Shown here piece after piece: positions 4,825-17,888 of a stretch of DNA of 17,942 bases. Each line of letters begins with the position of its first letter. Within the stretch, counting starts at the first letter, position 1. Source of the stretch: Sedimenticola sp. (GTDB lineage: Bacteria; Pseudomonadota; Gammaproteobacteria; Chromatiales; Chromatiaceae). The translations under genes were made by a program, and so were the position numbers. Location: NCBI GenBank assembly GCA_030590525.1, contig JAUUYI010000006.1, positions 1 through 17,942 on the forward strand, read 5' to 3'. The notes under the pieces were generated by a model. That model did not search any database and was not told where the DNA came from. It saw only the letters and a program-made list of their open reading frames with translations.

Positions 4825-5739
4825 ATGACGATACGAGCCATCCCGACATCCACCCCCCCCGCTGACCCACGACACCTGCCTGAAGTCTCGGTGATACCCG
4901 CCCCGTCAGCAACCGCACGGGTGCTGGCCTGCATATCCGGCAAAGAATCGCTACCGGTCACGGCGCTGGCTGCCGCACTCACCCGGCAGAAAAAAAAGGT
5001 CTGCCTGCTCGAAGCGCGAAAGCGGCGTGATGCAACTGCAGCTGATCCCTGCTTTCTGCTGACCGGGCAGAGTCTCGATGGCTTTCTGAAGAGAGACACC
5101 GCAGGCATATGGCGTGCCCCCCCGGTGCGCGACATAGGGGCGTTCAAACAACTCACCCCGCGACAAAAGCAGCGGCTGCTGTCGGCATTCCGCTATCTGG
5201 AAAGGCGTTTCGATTATCTGCTGATCGATACCGGTGATGATATCAGCGACTGGCTGACTGAACTGCGGCTGGCGGCGCCCCGAACCCTCCTCACCATCAC
5301 ACCGGAGAGCGGTTCCATGGAGTGGGCTATCCGCCTGCTCGAAGAGATCAGGCCTTTGGGTTTCACCCACACCGTTTATCTCATCATCGATCAGGTTTCC
5401 AGCCTGCTGGCCGGGCACGACAGCTATATCCTTTTCCAGCAGCGGCTGACAGCACTGGATATCGATCTGCGCTGCAGCGGTTTTTTACTGAAACCAGGGA
5501 ACCAAACCACTGCAGCCCCCCCCGGATCAGTGACTGAAAGCTACCTGGATATCGCTGCCGCCAGGCTGGGCGATCTGATAGATCAGGAGGAGGGGGGGAA
5601 TGCGGGTATCGGTCGTTTCTTCGAACAGCAACTGCCCGATCAACGGCGGCCAGAAAAACCCAAACAGGCACGCGATCTGGAAACAGCCGGACTGCTGGCT
5701 GCCAGCTATCATGCAGCACTGTCAGGGACCCGACTTTAG
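4825..5739 (+). CDS. ParA/MinD/FleN-like protein with a degenerate P-loop
   Basis: A 304-residue protein, divergent from the sensor kinase with only 72 bp between them. The fold is suggested by ACISGKESLPVTALAAAL at about 35-52 followed by KKVCLLEA, where MinD-type ATPases have the deviant Walker A loop, helix and second strand. It is also suggested by FDYLLIDTGDDISDWLTE at about 129-146, which matches the DYIIVDSPAG strand of MinD and FleN. A later segment resembles the family's TPE-plus-helix region (TITPESGSMEWAIRLLEEI). The usual KGGxGKT is missing: no GK[ST] follows the glycine, so ATP binding in the normal way is doubtful. The first 28 residues are proline-rich and the last 50 charged. 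The ATG at 4825 has no clear ribosome binding site. It could be a pseudo-ATPase working with the neighbouring c-di-GMP genes, but that is inference from position only. Confidence 0.75.
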   Translation: MTIRAIPTSTPPADPRHLPEVSVIPAPSATARVLACISGKESLPVTALAAALTRQKKKVCLLEARKRRDATAADPCFLLTGQSLDGFLKRDTAGIWRAPPVRDIGAFKQLTPRQKQRLLSAFRYLERRFDYLLIDTGDDISDWLTELRLAAPRTLLTITPESGSMEWAIRLLEEIRPLGFTHTVYLIIDQVSSLLAGHDSYILFQQRLTALDIDLRCSGFLLKPGNQTTAAPPGSVTESYLDIAAARLGDLIDQEEGGNAGIGRFFEQQLPDQRRPEKPKQARDLETAGLLAASYHAALSGTRL

Positions 5740-5760
5740 TACCTTACCACTGAAATCTTG
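5738..5760. repeat. 23-bp exact direct repeat, copy 1
   Basis: This stretch, AGTACCTTACC through to AAATCTTG, is identical over 23 bases to 17866-17888. It overlaps the TAG stop of the ParA-like gene and ends 36 bp before the dgkA stop. The flanking bases differ between copies. Confidence 0.9.
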
Positions 5761-5796: not shown

Positions 5797-6156
5797 TCAA
5801 AACAGCAGCAGCAACCAGACCGTAAAGACCAGCGCGATGCTGACAAAAACCGCCGCTGAACCCATGTCCTTGGCACGGCCGGAAAGCTCATGCTGCTCAC
5901 CCCCGAAGCGATCGACCACCGCCTCGATGGCTGAGTTAAGCAGCTCAACAAGCAGGACGATGAACAGGCATCCAACCAGCAGCGCCCGTTCAACGCCATT
6001 CTGACCCAACCAGAGCCCCAGCGGGGCCAGCAGCAGCAGGCCGAACAGTTCCTGGCGAAACGCCGCCTCGTGCCGGAAACAGGCTTTGAAACCCTTCAGC
6101 GTATAGCCATAGGCATTGATTACCCGTCGTAAACCGCGGGCCCCCGGATCAGCCAT
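5797..6156 (-). CDS. dgkA: Diacylglycerol kinase (prokaryotic DgkA type)
   Basis: This integral inner-membrane enzyme phosphorylates diacylglycerol to phosphatidic acid, recycling diacylglycerol released during envelope synthesis. The 119-residue form matches the family's usual length of about 120 and has three hydrophobic segments (about 36-52, 56-75 and 98-118). The catalytic residues of E. coli DgkA all appear two positions later: E30, E71, N74, E78, K96 and D97, within [21 protein letters not shown] and [11 protein letters not shown]. The ATG at 6156 was preferred to an ATG at 6198 because it gives the family length and an N-terminus that runs straight into the first helix. This start overlaps the gcvPB stop by 8 bp (ATGGCTGA), so translation is probably coupled. 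Having dgkA at the end of a glycine-cleavage operon has no obvious functional logic and is probably a co-expression convenience. Confidence 0.93.
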
Positions 6157-7609
6157 CCTTTGCCGGGCTCCAGGCCAGGTCCAACTCGCGTGCAGCACGC
6201 ACGTCGTCCAACCGCTTCACCGGCAGAGTATGGGGCGCCCCTTTCAGCAGCTCCGGCTCCCTGTTCGCCTCCTCCAGGATCTTTCCCATCACCTCGAGGA
6301 AGGCATCCAGGGTCTCTTTATCTTCGGTCTCGGTGGGCTCGATCAAGAGGCACTCCGCTATCAGCAGGGGAAAATAGGTGGTGGGGGCATGAAAACCGTA
6401 ATCCAGCAGCCGCTTTGCGAAGTCCATGGTATTCACCCCCAGCTGTTTGGCCTGACGCCGTAAGGTGATGATGAACTCGTGTGTTGCCCGCCGCTCCGGG
6501 TAGGCCGCCTCGTAACCCAGAGATTGCAGCCGTTTGAGTAGGTAATTGGCGTTGAGGGTAGAGAAATCCGCCACCCTTGGCATCCCTTCCCGTCCCAGCA
6601 TCCGGGCATAGACGTATGCCCGCAACAACACCCCCGCGTTGCCTGCAAAGGCAGAGAGGCGGCCAATGCTCTCCGGGCAGTCCGATTCGGTCAGCCAGCA
6701 GTAATCATCCCCGTCCCGGCCCACCATCGGCACCGGCAGGTAAGGCTGCAGCCGCTGGCTGACACCCACCGGGCCGGCACCGGGTCCACCGCCCCCATGC
6801 GGCGTGGAGAATGTCTTATGCAGGTTCATGTGGATCACATCGAATCCCATATCACCCGGCCGCACCTTACCCAGGATGGCGTTGAGGTTGGCGCCGTCAT
6901 AGTAGAGCAGACCACCTGCCTCATGCATCAGACTGGCGATCTCGCTGATGCGCCGGTCGAATACCCCCAGCGTGGAGGGGTTGGTGAGCATGATACCGGC
7001 AGTCTGGGGGCCGAGCACTTCCCGCAATGCCGCCACATCCACGTCACCGTTCGCACCGGTGGGGATCTCCCGTACCTCATAGCCACACATCACGGCCGAG
7101 GCCGGGTTGGTCCCATGGGCCGCATCCGGCACCAGAATCTCACGGCGCGCTGCGTCTCCCCGAGACTCATGATAGGCTCTGATCATGGCCACTCCGGCAA
7201 ACTCGCCCTGGGCCCCGGCGGCGGGACTGAGAGAAACCGCCTGCATACCCGTCACCTCCTTGAGTATCTCCTGCAGCTCATACATACAGGCCATGAAGCC
7301 CTGACTGTGGCTCTCCGGCGCTTCTGGATGGCGCGCCAGGAAGCCGGGCAGCATTGCCAGCTGATTACCCCCCCGGGGGTTGTACTTCATGGTGCAGGAG
7401 CCAAGGGGGTAAAAGTGAGTATCGATGGAGAAATTCTTCTGTGACAGGCGGGTGTAGTGACGTACCACCTGCATCTCCGACAGTTCCGGCAGGGCAGCCC
7501 GTTTGCGCCGCTTGAAACGCTCCGGGATAGCGCCGGTCTCTCCTTTCAGCAACGGGGCCTGAGCGGGGGCTCGACGCCCCGGGCGGGAGTGTTGGTAAAT
7601 CAGGCTCAT
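6149..7609 (-). CDS. gcvPB: Glycine dehydrogenase (decarboxylating) subunit 2, P-protein C-terminal half
   Basis: GcvPB is the beta subunit of the split P-protein. With GcvPA it binds pyridoxal phosphate and decarboxylates glycine, passing the aminomethyl group to lipoylated GcvH. The 486-residue protein contains the family's cofactor region: the predicted Schiff-base lysine is K265 in [30 protein letters not shown] (about 66-78), [23 protein letters not shown] and [10 protein letters not shown] are also clear. The ATG at 7609 has a GGAG six bases upstream, but that GGAG lies inside the closing arm of a long hairpin (7613-7673). The start of gcvPB is therefore likely opened by ribosomes finishing gcvPA, whose stop is 69 bp upstream. 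Its own stop overlaps dgkA. Confidence 0.97.
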
Positions 7610-7612
7610 CTA

Positions 7613-7673
7613 GTGCTCCAGCAAGGTTATATTGATGGACTCAGAGCCCATCAATATAACCTTGTTGGAGTAC
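7613..7673 (-). promoter_or_regulatory. Long intercistronic hairpin covering the gcvPB ribosome binding site
   Basis: Bases 7613-7638 and 7648-7673 form a 26-bp inverted repeat with only two G-U type wobbles and a 9-nt loop (ACTCAGAGC on the + strand). In the minus-strand mRNA the 5' arm starts 5 nt after the gcvPA TGA. The 3' arm ends in CUGGAG, whose GGAG is the gcvPB ribosome binding site, six bases from its ATG. No U-run follows, so it is not a standard terminator. The layout fits a structure that closes the gcvPB start until a terminating gcvPA ribosome melts it. It could also act as an RNase processing site or be a resident palindromic repeat. Confidence 0.8.
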
Positions 7674-7678
7674 GAGTG

Positions 7679-9082
7679 TCACCAATCTTTGGGTTGCAAC
7701 TGGCAGGGGGCACCCCCCTGCAGGGAAAGAACACGTTCCAACTTCGTGACCAGCGACTCCATCTCATTCCGGGTGCGTCGCTCGGTGGCACAGGTAAGAA
7801 TGCAGCCGTCCCCCAGTTCGGGGTAGTCCCGGGAAAGATCCAGTCCTGCCAGCAGGTTATGTGCAGCAAGGGCGCGCAATACCCCCTTCGCCACCACCGG
7901 CAGCTGTATCACGCGCTCGTGAAACACCGGGCGGTCGAAGCGTGGTTCCACCCCGGGCAGCCGGCTCAGAGACTCTACCAGCCAGGCGGTGTTGTCATAA
8001 CAGGCAGCGGCTACCCGCTCCAGTCCATCCGGGCCCAGCAGGGCCATATGGATGGTTGCGGCCGTCACCATCAAGCCCTGATTGGTGCAGATATTGGAGG
8101 TCGCCTTGGAGCGGCGGATGTGCTGCTCCCGGGCCTGCAGGGTAAGGGTATAACCCGGCTTTCCATCCAGATCCAGGGTAGCCCCGATAATCCGCCCGGG
8201 CATCTGACGGACCAGCGCCTTCCGGCAGCAGAGAAAGCCAAAATAGGGTCCACCGGAAGAGAGGGGGGCACCCAGGGGCTGACCCTCGCCACAACAGATG
8301 TCCGCCCCTTGCTCACCCCACTCTCCCGGCGGGGCGAGCAGCGCCACGGCAACCGGGTTGATCAGGGCGATGCTCAGCGCCTTGTTGGCATGGGCCCAGT
8401 CGGTGAGCAGATCGACCTCTTCCAGCACACCGAAAAAGTTGGCCTGGGGCACCACCACGGCAGCAAAATCCTCACCGGCATGGACCGCCAGTGCCTCCGG
8501 TGACGCATGCCCGCCCTCGGGATCGAACGGCAACTCCACCAGCTCGATCCCTTGATTGCGAACGATACTGCGAACCACCCGGCGATAGTGGGGATGTACC
8601 GTCCGTGGCATCAGCACCCGCCGGGATTTGGACTTACGATTGGCGCGTACTGCCATCAATACCGCTTCGGCCAGTGCCGATGCCCCGTCATAGAGTGAGG
8701 CGTTGGAGACGTCCATAGCGGTGAGCGCGGTCATCATGGACTGATACTCATACAGCAGTTGCAGGGTGCCCTGGCTTGCCTCCGCCTGATAGGGGGTGTA
8801 GGCGGTATAGAATTCTCCCCGGGTGGCAAGCTGCCAGACCGCCGCCGGGATATGGTGATCATAGGCACCAGCCCCGATGAAGCAGACTGCCACCCCGTCC
8901 TGCCTGGCCCTGGCATCCATCAGCCGCCCAACATCCATCTCAGACATACCCTCTGGAATGGCATTCAGTTCGCCACAGCGCAGGCCATCAGGTATCTCGT
9001 CGAAGAGCCGTTCAATACTGTCGACGCCAATGGTCTCCAGCATCTCCCCGATCTCCTGCTCTGTGTGAGGTATGAAAGGCAT
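7679..9082 (-). CDS. gcvPA: Glycine dehydrogenase (decarboxylating) subunit 1, P-protein N-terminal half
   Basis: GcvPA is the alpha subunit of the two-part P-protein; it has the same fold as GcvPB but lacks the cofactor lysine. The 467-residue protein begins [20 protein letters not shown], the usual start of this subunit. Family segments include [18 protein letters not shown], where the family has its typical GAGxYxHxxP motif, and the tyrosine- and glutamine-rich stretch [22 protein letters not shown]. The ATG at 9082 lies 5 bp after the gcvH stop, with GAGG about 11 bases upstream inside the end of gcvH. The coding region ends 5 bp before the long hairpin that precedes gcvPB. Equal amounts of both halves are needed for the complex, which fits the tight linkage. 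Confidence 0.96.
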
Positions 9083-9597: not shown

Positions 9598-9641
9598 TCC
9601 TCAGTCCTGCTTTTATCCCCGGTCCTTGGCCCTTGGTCCTA
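9598..9641. repeat. Heptamer repeat tract at the 3' end of gcvT
   Basis: On the + strand, GGTCCTT, GGCCCTT and GGTCCTA occupy 9621-9641 in exact 7-bp phase, preceded by TCCTGCTTTTATCCCC. The last unit contains the gcvT stop (CTA = TAG on the minus strand, 9639-9641). The TCCTGCTTTTATCC piece recurs almost unchanged near 13863-13877. Confidence 0.8.
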
Positions 9642-10724: not shown

Positions 10725-10752
10725 GAATCTCAATCTCCCTTTAAAACAGATA

Positions 10753-10773
10753 CTAGGTACGAGGTGCTAGGAA
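10753..10773. repeat. Heptamer repeat tract upstream of gcvT
   Basis: Three phased units, CTAGGTA, CGAGGTG and CTAGGAA, lie 29 bp upstream of the gcvT ATG. They belong to the same family as the tracts at 10892-10926 and 11183-11256. Confidence 0.75.
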
Positions 10774-10887
10774 AAAAATAAAACCCTTCCAAACCCACCC
10801 CTGGCACCTGGTTCTACTTTGTCAGGTTGCACAAAGGTCACAAATTGCAAAATTCGTAGGTTGGGCTGAGCCTGCGAAACCCAACAA
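10767..10887. repeat. About 120-bp direct repeat, copy 1
   Basis: Starts with CTAGGAAAAA, runs through a middle segment (CTGGCACCTGGTTCTACTTT and following) and ends with the palindromic CGTAGGTTGGGC element. Copy 2 at 10920-11038 differs at only a handful of positions, mostly in the A-run and the CCCACCCC/CCAACCC stretch. No open reading frame of note is seen in it. Confidence 0.9.
10855..10887. repeat. REP-like palindrome CGTAGGTTGGGC...CCCAACAA, copy 1
   Basis: GTTGGG and CCCAAC can pair around a 14-nt centre. The same framework (CGTAGG, G-rich arm, complementary arm, AA) appears at 11006-11038 and, with a different stem, at 17911-17942. Confidence 0.75.
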
Positions 10888-10891
10888 TATA

Positions 10892-10926
10892 CTAGGCACG
10901 AGTTACGAGGCACTAGACACTAGGAA
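10892..10926. repeat. Five phased heptamers between the two 120-bp repeats
   Basis: CTAGGCA, CGAGTTA, CGAGGCA, CTAGACA and CTAGGAA follow one another without a break in 7-bp phase. The last unit opens copy 2 of the 120-bp repeat. Confidence 0.85.
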
Positions 10927-11038
10927 AAACAAAACCCTTCCAAATCCAACCCTGGCACCTGGTTCTACTTTGTCAGATTGCACAAAGGTCACAAATTGCA
11001 AAATTCGTAGGTTGGGCTGAGCCTGCGAAGCCCAACAA
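10920..11038. repeat. About 120-bp direct repeat, copy 2
   Basis: Near-identical to 10767-10887, with a period of 153 bp including the heptamer spacer. It ends with the second CGTAGGTTGGGC palindrome (11006-11038), whose stem is 8 bp here (GTTGGGCT/AGCCCAAC) against 6 bp in copy 1. Confidence 0.9.
11006..11038. repeat. REP-like palindrome, copy 2
   Basis: CGTAGG followed by GTTGGGCT, a 10-nt centre and AGCCCAAC, then AA. One A-to-G change relative to copy 1 lengthens the stem, so the stem is maintained or improved. Confidence 0.75.
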
Positions 11039-11092
11039 CTTACCAAATTTAGCGCCACTCCTGCGTTTAGAATAGTTCTAGCTCTACTTTTT

Positions 11093-11173
11093 CGTAACTA
11101 TTCAGTTCTTTCCATGGTCGTCGCTGATGCCTGCGACTTAGTGCCAAAATTCAAAGCATGCTGAATAGTTACG
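11093..11173. mobile_element. Small element with perfect 13-bp terminal inverted repeats (MITE-like)
   Basis: CGTAACTATTCAG at 11093-11105 is exactly complementary to CTGAATAGTTACG at 11161-11173. Inside lies a nested hairpin, GTCGC (11120-11124) and GCGAC (11133-11137). The element is 81 bp and codes for nothing evident. Terminal repeats and inner folding resemble a miniature inverted-repeat element, but no target-site duplication could be recognised. Confidence 0.55.
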
Positions 11174-11182
11174 TTGTTTCTT

Positions 11183-11256
11183 TTCCTAGGACCTAGTACC
11201 TCGGCCCTAGGTCCTGTTTTTCTCCTAGTGCCTCGTACCTAGTACCTCGTACCTGC
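11183..11256. repeat. Heptamer repeat tract over the 3' end of ubiI
   Basis: Two blocks of five phased heptamers, 11183-11217 (TTCCTAG GACCTAG TACCTCG and so on) and 11222-11256 (CTCCTAG TGCCTCG TACCTAG and so on), are separated by TTTT. The second block encodes the last residues of UbiI (AGTRY) and its TAG stop at 11239-11241. Confidence 0.88.
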
Positions 11257-12453: not shown

Positions 12454-13771
12454 GGGAAAGCCCTCGGGAAAGGCGTGGTAACCGGCCGTTCAATCCCATG
12501 AACCGGCGGCTCAAAAGCCGTTTTGCGGGCGGCAGCAGATCCAGGGCCACCAGCCCCAGGTTGCGTACCAGCCGTAATGGCAGCAGTGGGTTGGTGAACA
12601 GCCGCACCAGGCCATCCGTCATCAGCGCCACCGCCTGCTGATCGCGCCGGCGCCAGTCGGCGTAGCGCTGCAGCACATCCATGAGACCGATGTCGTTCCC
12701 CCTCCCATGGGCATCGGCGATCACATCCGCCAACACCGCCACATCACGGATTCCCAGGTTGAAGCCCTGCCCGGTGATCGGATGCACCGCGTGGGCTGCA
12801 TTGCCAATCAGGGCCACTCGGGAGCGCACATGTTCCTCTGCCCGCATCAGCTTGAGGGCGTAGGAAGAGCGCTTCCCTGGTCTGCTGAAATGCCCCAGCC
12901 GGTAACCGAAGCGCTCCTGAACTCGCTGTAGAAAGGCGCTGTCATCCAGCGCCATTACTTCTTCAGCCTGTTCGTCAGACAGGCTCCAGACCATGGCGTA
13001 GCGGCCACCGATCAGCGGCAGCATGGCCAGCGGGCCAGTATCGGTAAAACGCTCGTAGGCGGTGCCATCCGCCTCCTTTCCCGGGGTAAGATTGGCGATC
13101 ACCGCCGTCTGGCCATAGCTCCATTCCCGAACCGCGATACCCAGTCTCCGACGGACCAGGGAGCGGCTCCCATCCGCCGCCACCAACAGCCGACCGTGTA
13201 GTGTCCGTCGCCCCGTCTCGAGGGCCAGTTCCACCTTTACCTGATCGCTGCCGACAGCAAACGACTCCAGTGTGGCAGGGCAGATCAGCTCCACCCCGGA
13301 GAGGTCATCCAGCCCCTTCATCAACACCTGCCCCAGTGCCTGCCCGGTGGCCACATAACCCAGGGCGTCCACTCCCTGATCCCTGCTGTGCAGGCGGGCA
13401 AAACCAAAGTGCCCCCGGTCGGATACATGAATGTGCCGTATCGGCTCGGCATCCTGCTGCAGCCTCGACCAGACCCCCATTCCCTCCAGGATTACGCGGG
13501 TTCCGTAGGCGAGGGCGATGGCCCGGTCGTCATAACTGGGCTGCTGGTCAGAATCCAATGGCCAGGCCTCCACCACCGCAATATGGAGACCACAGCCGGC
13601 CAGAGAACGAGCCAGGCTGGCCCCAACCATGCCACCACCGATAACAATAACGTCAAAATCAGGAGAATCAGGAACAACAGGACCGAGGACCGAGGACCGA
13701 GGGTCGGACGAACCGATCCCACCAGTGCTCGAATGCTTGTCCCTTTTTTTCGATCTGTGTTTTTTTCCCAC
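12446..13771 (-). CDS. ubiH: UbiH, 2-octaprenyl-6-methoxyphenol hydroxylase family
   Basis: This oxygen-dependent flavin hydroxylase acts in ubiquinone synthesis. The FAD loop is VIVIGGGMVGASL at about 41-53. The UbiH-type segment VSDRGHFGFARL follows at mid-protein, then ADGSRSLVR, and the second FAD motif GNAAHAVHPITGQGFNLGIRD. The 441-residue form has about 39 residues before the FAD fold, more than E. coli UbiH, and no ATG, GTG or TTG closer to the fold is in frame. Hence the GTG at 13771 (AGGGG about nine bases upstream) is used. Part of that extension (SSDPRSSVLGP) is encoded by a heptamer repeat tract, so the original start was probably lost or displaced. It overlaps ubiI by 8 bp and lies 79 bp after pepP. 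Confidence 0.9.
   Translation of the reverse strand: MGKKHRSKKRDKHSSTGGIGSSDPRSSVLGPVVPDSPDFDVIVIGGGMVGASLARSLAGCGLHIAVVEAWPLDSDQQPSYDDRAIALAYGTRVILEGMGVWSRLQQDAEPIRHIHVSDRGHFGFARLHSRDQGVDALGYVATGQALGQVLMKGLDDLSGVELICPATLESFAVGSDQVKVELALETGRRTLHGRLLVAADGSRSLVRRRLGIAVREWSYGQTAVIANLTPGKEADGTAYERFTDTGPLAMLPLIGGRYAMVWSLSDEQAEEVMALDDSAFLQRVQERFGYRLGHFSRPGKRSSYALKLMRAEEHVRSRVALIGNAAHAVHPITGQGFNLGIRDVAVLADVIADAHGRGNDIGLMDVLQRYADWRRRDQQAVALMTDGLVRLFTNPLLPLRLVRNLGLVALDLLPPAKRLLSRRFMGLNGRLPRLSRGLSLE
13680..13707. repeat. Tandem GGACCGA heptamers inside the ubiH 5' end
   Basis: GGACCGA occurs three times in direct tandem (13680-13700), followed by the related GGGTCGG. It is the only tract found inside coding sequence, and it lies in the opposite orientation to the other tracts. 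Confidence 0.9.
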
Positions 13772-13795
13772 GACTATAGCCCCTGACTCAACCCC

Positions 13796-13916
13796 CGGCC
13801 CCGTTTTTCCTGGGCCCCAGGTCCTGCTTCTATCCTTGGTCCCGTTTTTCCTAGGAGCCTGTCCCTGCCTTTATCCTCGGTCCTGTTTTTCCTGGGTCCT
13901 GTTTTTCCTGCTTTAA
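13796..13916. repeat. Degenerate CCTNGG / GTTTTTCCT repeat tract between ubiH and pepP
   Basis: On the + strand a TCC[TC]GTTTTTCCT-type unit recurs four times (near 13801, 13841, 13881 and 13898), mixed with heptamer pieces such as CCTTGGT, CCTAGGA and CCTCGGT. The tract supplies the last 15-20 residues and the TAG stop of PepP. The piece CCTTTATCCTCGGTCCTG matches the tract beside gcvT. Confidence 0.8.
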
Positions 13917-17865: not shown

Positions 17866-17888
17866 AGTACCTTACCACTGAAATCTTG
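17866..17888. repeat. 23-bp exact direct repeat, copy 2
   Basis: Identical over 23 bases to 5738-5760 and in the same orientation on the + strand. Here it lies 7 bp upstream of the ubiU ATG and supplies the weak AAGG ribosome binding site. Confidence 0.9.

Follow-up and report, generated by a model that had tools for sequence, protein, structure and literature searches.

A short palindromic element of an IS630-like family as the likely source of the hairpin and ribosome site between gcvPA and gcvPB in Sedimenticola sp.

In translational coupling an RNA structure masks the ribosome site of a downstream gene and is opened by the ribosome that translates the upstream gene. Among the signals that mobile elements are known to introduce are promoters, terminators and nuclease sites. 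In the literature searched, with most subscription journals outside its coverage, no MITE was found that supplies a Shine-Dalgarno sequence. A word search in the main text of a 2024 review of prokaryotic MITEs returned none of the terms ribosome, Shine-Dalgarno, start codon and stop codon (PMC10969869), and the available part of PMC5972666 deals mostly with eukaryotic and viral reinitiation.

Several described repeats resemble the element reported here; they are compared on the basis of those sections of the sources that were accessible. RUP of Streptococcus pneumoniae, a 107 bp IS630-related MITE with terminal inverted repeats like those of IS630-Spn1, shares with the family at the gcvP junction its small size, its palindromic form, its dispersal and its IS630-like ends (PMC3049150). 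A supply of ribosome sites is not mentioned for RUP in these sections, whereas the present family has an outward GGAG at each end and lengths of 37, 60-67 and about 270 bp. The pneumococcal BOX repeat, like some of the present elements, provides neighbouring genes with their stop codon (36 CDSs); it differs in being composite, and the BOX-encoded ORFs examined are without good Shine-Dalgarno candidates (PMC3049150). SAS and ESAS of Cluster K mycobacteriophages are likewise repeats at translation starts, with AGGAG and in about half of the cases with inverted repeats just upstream, but they are regulatory repeats of phages, made up of 13 bp plus 17-bp inverted repeats, and have no transposase ends (PMC3203893). 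REP and REPIN sequences with RAYT (Y1) are short dispersed palindromes like the present family including its 37-bp form; they are Y1-linked, whereas the present ends occurred at 0 of 30 Y1 loci and around an IS630 transposase. Described coupling structures have a masked site that is eased by the upstream ribosome, as is predicted for the GGAG here. The difference is that masking arm and ribosome site would here be the two ends of one mobile element.

The hairpin between gcvPA and gcvPB

Within the window, i.e. the whole analysed stretch of 17,942 nucleotides, gcvPA, gcvPB and a near-perfect palindrome in between are part of a glycine-cleavage cluster with the following features:

6149..7609, minus strand: gcvPB, with PF21478 and PF02347 (Pfam: GcvP2_C, GDC-P); ATG at 7607-7609
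7679..9082, minus strand: gcvPA, with PF02347 (Pfam: GDC-P)
7610..7676, no strand assigned: likely palindromic mobile element, compact 67-bp copy, with copies on 13 other contigs and the ends and lengths of the family
7610..7638, minus strand: terminal inverted repeat, which is the hairpin's 3' arm in the gcv mRNA
7648..7676, minus strand: other terminal inverted repeat, which is the hairpin's 5' arm in the gcv mRNA
7616..7619, minus strand (CTCC on the plus strand): GGAG, putative gcvPB Shine-Dalgarno sequence, 6 nt before the ATG
7667..7670, minus strand: CUCC, predicted partner of the GGAG
7653..7682, minus strand: promoter-like hexamers GTGACA-18-TATATT that extend into the 5' arm, a consensus match only

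A first-pass annotation of this DNA had described a hairpin with arms at 7613-7638 and 7648-7673 and a 9-nt loop, starting 5 nt past the gcvPA stop, and all of these parts are present. The coordinates (7616-7619 versus 7607-7609) bear out that a GGAG lies six bases ahead of the gcvPB ATG. The complementarity of the arms reaches past this stem, to 7610-7676. The two wobble pairs that had been reported are G-U pairs only if the plus strand is folded; in the gcv mRNA, which has the minus-strand sequence, both are A.C mismatches. There the helix consists of 20 bp, an A.C and 5 bp with a folding energy of -38.2 kcal/mol, compared to -42.6 kcal/mol on the plus strand. In a computed fold, the 161-nt hairpin region was more stable than 200 of 200 shuffled sequences on each strand (z of -5.96 for the mRNA strand and -6.46 for the other strand). 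A search for 26/9/26 palindromes with at most 4 mismatches returned this hairpin as the single one in the whole window, and no Rfam family matched the window at gathering score.

Such a long duplex (-38.2 kcal/mol) could be an RNA-processing site, at which RNase III or another nuclease would cut and give the two cistrons separate stabilities. Correia elements are described as acting via RNase III and ERIC via RNase E in the accessible part of PMC3049150. Cleavage leaves the GGAG spacing unexplained, and we consider this reading rather improbable. An intrinsic terminator (GC-rich stem plus T run) was rejected, as 0 terminator-like sites were found at 7400-7900.

The window holds further repeats. 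Upstream of gcvT, at 10748-11251, two 119-nt direct repeats (94% alike) occur together with CTAGTACC/CCTCGTACC-like inverted repeats, possibly another repeat family. Repeats of the GGTCCTGTTTTTCCTGG type are found at 13666-13913 and also at 9604 and 11206, and an exact 23-nt direct repeat, AGTACCTTACCACTGAAATCTTG, is present at 5738-5760 and 17866-17888.

A dispersed family of elements and its probable transposase link

The genome of the window (2.34 Mb in 389 contigs, about 70% complete) has arms related to those of the gcvP hairpin on 13 further contigs. A 23-nt arm pattern, matched without mismatch by 7648-7670, occurred with at most 3 mismatches at 20 places in this genome, the reversed control at 0. 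Several of these matches were paired at a distance of about 235 nt, being the two ends of an element of about 270 bp. The members of the family end CTAGTACTCC...GGAGTACTAG. Each end bears an outward-facing GGAG, and the ends read GGAG..CTAG outward. Among 87 end-to-end spans in the fetched loci, with orthologous copies from different species counted separately, 35 were 37 bp, 8 were 60-67 bp and 21 were 269-271 bp long, the rest lying between or beyond these lengths. All except two spans (85 of 87) measured 37-322 bp; the longer ones were an IS630-bearing locus and a span of 1039 bp (L284), which holds an 85-aa ORF with no Pfam match. In 184 distinct ends, for which an intact GGAG was an inclusion requirement, conservation extended through the TAG (T in 157, A in 149, G in 148) and the sequence was random beyond.

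Copies also occur in related genera and in other families of the class. With at most 2 mismatches 83 of 210 genomes of the same family matched, many by a single place and close to the level of the reversed control, while a handful were clearly multi-copy. With at most 1 mismatch 16 of 274 genomes of the class matched, three of them from other families with 5, 23 and 23 places. Parts of the 270-bp form (query L012:440-730) matched 26 of 96 family genomes, several by the inner module alone, which may travel with other ends. The 270-bp form had no match in the plasmid collection, and the exact 17-mer was present on 0 viral contigs. The palindrome is not a device specific to gcvP: it is scattered over unrelated loci, an observation that the first-pass annotation itself had listed as a refutation of its reading.

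At one locus of a related genome (L286:298-1517) the same ends, at a distance of 1220 bp, flank a pair of overlapping ORFs with matches to HTH_32 and DDE_3. Of these ORFs, the second scored above and the first below the cut-off of the NCBIfam IS630 transposase model NF033545. This is the single transposase-bearing copy seen, none being seen in the genome of the window. Since this 1.2-kb relative with the same ends encodes an IS630-family transposase, the best reading of the family is an IS630-type MITE. The elements are short and non-coding with terminal inverted repeats, they are dispersed over unrelated loci, their mobility is apparent from filled and empty orthologous sites (rseP, AAA ATPase, nadD), and their ends are the same as those of an autonomous IS630 element at one locus. 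IS630 elements target TA and duplicate it. No clear target duplication was seen at the element insertions; the empty AAA ATPase site reads CTAG, where TA and CTAG as targets are indistinguishable, and the empty rseP site contains no TA. An origin from REP/RAYT was rejected: Y1 transposase matches were present in 10 of 12 genomes, with none in the genome of the window, and 0 of 30 fetched Y1 loci contained the end 17-mer with at most 3 mismatches.

Insertion sites, start codons and stop codons

For the history of the gcvP insertion, 80 gcvPB loci were fetched, 3 of which were dropped from the spacer count because one gene was missing in each. The gcvPA-gcvPB spacers of the 77 named relatives measured -4 to 34 nt in 30 cases, 42-111 nt in 8, at least 499 nt in 38 and 218 nt in one. 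The latter is the closest relative, Sedimenticola sp. CSMAG_2797 (L022; its duplicate L338 was left out), whose gcvPB is 92% identical. Its spacer contains the last part of the element, ending GGAGTACTAGA TTG, while the 5' arm is gone. The GGAG is retained 7 nt before the TTG even though the rest of the element has decayed. A second long palindrome (AGCAGCAATTCT...AGAATTGCT) with CACGAAG repeats adjoins the remnant. The simplest reading is one insertion that predates the split of this genome from L022, followed by loss of the stem in L022. Because the L022 remnant resembles, by eye, the long form of the element, there may instead have been two independent insertions at this site.

The end motif was found at no gcvPB locus of the 80 other than that of L022. 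Only L022 has the insertion in common with this genome, and there the stem is broken, so that a stem kept with covariation in relatives, a sign of function sought by the first-pass annotation, was not found; the sequences are too few for covariation. Relatives without a stem at this spacer were a second observation that the annotation had named as a refutation. The annotation had proposed a device that ties the synthesis of the two P-protein subunits together, i.e. a stem shaped by selection for equal amounts of GcvPA and GcvPB. The geometry would suit such a hairpin, with the stem 5 nt past the stop, the GGAG paired and its opening predicted to be eased by a terminating ribosome. However, the same palindrome stands at unrelated loci, the 5' arm is lost in the sister, the other gcvPB loci lack the end motif, and 30 of 77 relatives have spacers of -4 to 34 nt. 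We regard a hairpin evolved for this purpose as barely credible.

For three other insertions (rseP, AAA ATPase and nadD) element-free orthologous sites were found. At rseP the sister reads TGA TTCTTCCGTT ATG, compared to a 270-bp element ending GGAGTACTAGCGTT ATG in this genome. The AAA ATPase site is empty in 5 of 5 relatives, reading TAC TAG GATTCAAA ATG (GATTCGAA in one), and the filled copy reads TAC TAG TACTCC...GGAGTACTAAGA ATG with a shorter residual spacer. At nadD the element is present in 2 of 22 genomes; the other 20 are without it in the 130 nt shown, and the downstream gene differs in some. No clean empty site was found for dciA, since the sister's dciA lies in a different context.

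We then determined the distance from the element GGAG to predicted ATG starts, with GTG and TTG starts left out. Merging ends with similar flanks (149 to 136) left 136 distinct ends with intact GGAG, 44 of which have an ATG ORF (minimum 100 codons, or 60 when the ORF is open) starting within 200 nt. From the loci L276-L305 the end counts took L281, L292, L297 and L305 only; L339 and L340 were unused, their sites being already in L242 and L244. A distance of 5-12 nt was found for 11 of the 44 ends. A uniform spread would give 1.8 such ends (p about 1e-6); as a null this is crude, because small distances are imposed wherever operon gaps are short. Anchors shifted by -12 to +400 nt gave 0-3 such ends. 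The start in L016 (LysM protein) is doubtful, as judged from its translation, and probably a later GTG; with it removed, 10 of 44 ends remain (p 8e-6). The start in L240, which looks like CarA, is doubtful on the same grounds, the real ATG lying at 31 nt. A second set, from 40 later loci all of other families (50 ends merged to 48), gave 4 of 17 ends at 5-12 nt compared to 0.7 expected (p 0.004), again counting predicted ATG starts under the same null, with 0-2 for shifted anchors.

The eleven ends belong to ten elements, that of gcvPB included, two ends being from a single dciA/MatE element. Genes started at 5-12 nt include those of RseP, GspF, NadD, DciA and a SpoU methylase; for RseP, GspF and NadD the protein-family match sets in at the predicted first residue or close to it. 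At rodA (L202), outside the list of eleven, the GGAG is 8 nt before the ATG. Several operon junctions share a layout in which the stop of the first gene coincides with one end or shortly precedes it, and the start of the following gene lies 5-12 nt past the GGAG of the other end. In a sample of the own genome codirectional spacers of at most 25 nt account for 140 of the 13,002 intergenic bases, a share so small that chance landing of elements there should be rare. The names CarA and, for upstream genes, gspE, proA, dxr, mrdA and urtB were assigned by eye. Elements of unlike length, 67 bp and 270 bp, precede gspF in two genera (L211, L208, L213-L215); in L208, L211 and L213 the gene upstream (gspE) stops at the element TAG, and in L208 the GGAG before gspF is altered to GGTG.

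In L011 (G000:C294) a 269-bp element fills almost the entire gap between the divergent DciA and MatE genes, with a GGAG 7 and 6 nt before the respective starts. Such a copy suggests promoters inside the long form. At gcvP, an element-borne promoter (GTGACA-18-TATATT on the mRNA strand) would give transcripts that start in the 5' arm without the CUCC, leaving the GGAG open and gcvPB uncoupled. This one consensus match stands against 0.3 expected in shuffles, however, and half of it is gcvPA sequence outside the element, which makes such a promoter very improbable.

At the opposite side of the elements we inspected 221 distinct left ends, of which 138 are preceded at short distance by an ORF of 100 codons or more. 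These ORFs stop more than 15 nt before the element in 48 cases and 1-15 nt before it in 12; 40 end exactly at the element TAG, 10 end deeper in the element (7 of them at one TGA) and 28 read more than 40 nt into it. Thus 40 of the 78 ORFs entering the element end at the TAG, compared to 26 for equal phases (p 0.0008), an excess that we consider real but moderate; some of these ORFs may be spurious. CTAG is rare in the own-genome sample (50 found, where base composition predicts 520), and C plus a TAG stop accounts for 6 of the 50, such that a preference for CTAG would by itself steer the element to gene ends.

Predicted masking of the ribosome site and probable role of the element

For every base of the GGAG, the predicted fold of the window mRNA gives a probability of at most 0.006 of being unpaired. 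Opening the GGAG costs 9.9 kcal/mol, and 8.6, 4.9 or 3.0 kcal/mol when a ribosome at the gcvPA stop covers 11, 13 or 15 nt. Placing a ribosome at the stop lowers the opening cost in eight of the nine junction copies, the ninth (rodA) having a mis-called upstream stop; this drop is partly built in, as masking one arm of a palindrome always frees the other. The blocking of the GGAG and its release by the gcvPA ribosome, both proposed in the first-pass annotation, are thus supported in silico, as predicted pairing and predicted cheaper opening; the purpose given to them is not. Coupling of gcvPB to gcvPA translation appears physically possible, plausibly as a by-product of the palindromy of the element and not as a conserved purpose. 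The sister, having lost the stem, raises doubt on a strict need for the mask. In the L022 fold the first two GGAG bases are still predicted to be paired, to other sequence, so that loss of the stem need not mean an open site there. Coupling cannot explain all ends, as the divergent dciA/MatE copy has a GGAG before starts where it cannot act.

The element might also be a neutral selfish insertion, with gcvPB mainly served by reinitiation of ribosomes that end gcvPA and with GGAG and stem being incidental. Very short spacers in many relatives, some without an evident Shine-Dalgarno sequence by eye, and the insertion-free rseP site, likewise without an evident one, would fit this. Yet the spacing peak at 5-12 nt in both sets, and the GGAG and its spacing kept in L022 despite decay of other element parts, make it unlikely.

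As a whole the observations are best explained by a short IS630-type MITE copy inserted at a tight gcvPA/gcvPB junction, which we hold to be likely. The mobile non-coding palindromic element would have landed there, most simply before the split from the closest relative, and the GGAG of its end would have become the working gcvPB Shine-Dalgarno sequence; that the element supplied the gcvPB ribosome site is very probable. As this GGAG pairs with the CUCC of the opposite end, coupling would have been brought along: initiation at gcvPB would stay weak as long as the CUCC is not covered by a ribosome that terminates on gcvPA. This masking step is a real possibility, although we lean slightly against it. 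More tentatively, and in our view somewhat doubtful, the family as such may act as a portable operon junction that lands at CTAG, restores the TAG stop and brings, at each end, an outward Shine-Dalgarno sequence masked by the opposite end; the equal-phase comparison weakened the stop-codon part of this proposal.

The interest lies in the family of elements more than in the gcvP hairpin alone. If the portable-junction proposal holds, a single insertion would rebuild the stop, a coupling hairpin and a ribosome site between co-transcribed genes, landing in tight junctions of important genes would be nearly harmless, and coupled translation would spread over unrelated operons. The pairs of filled and empty sites would offer natural before-and-after cases for measuring a hairpin-masked ribosome site. 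Ends that supply the signal for translation to start, at times together with the stop codon ahead of it, would be another route by which mobile DNA may survive in compact operons.
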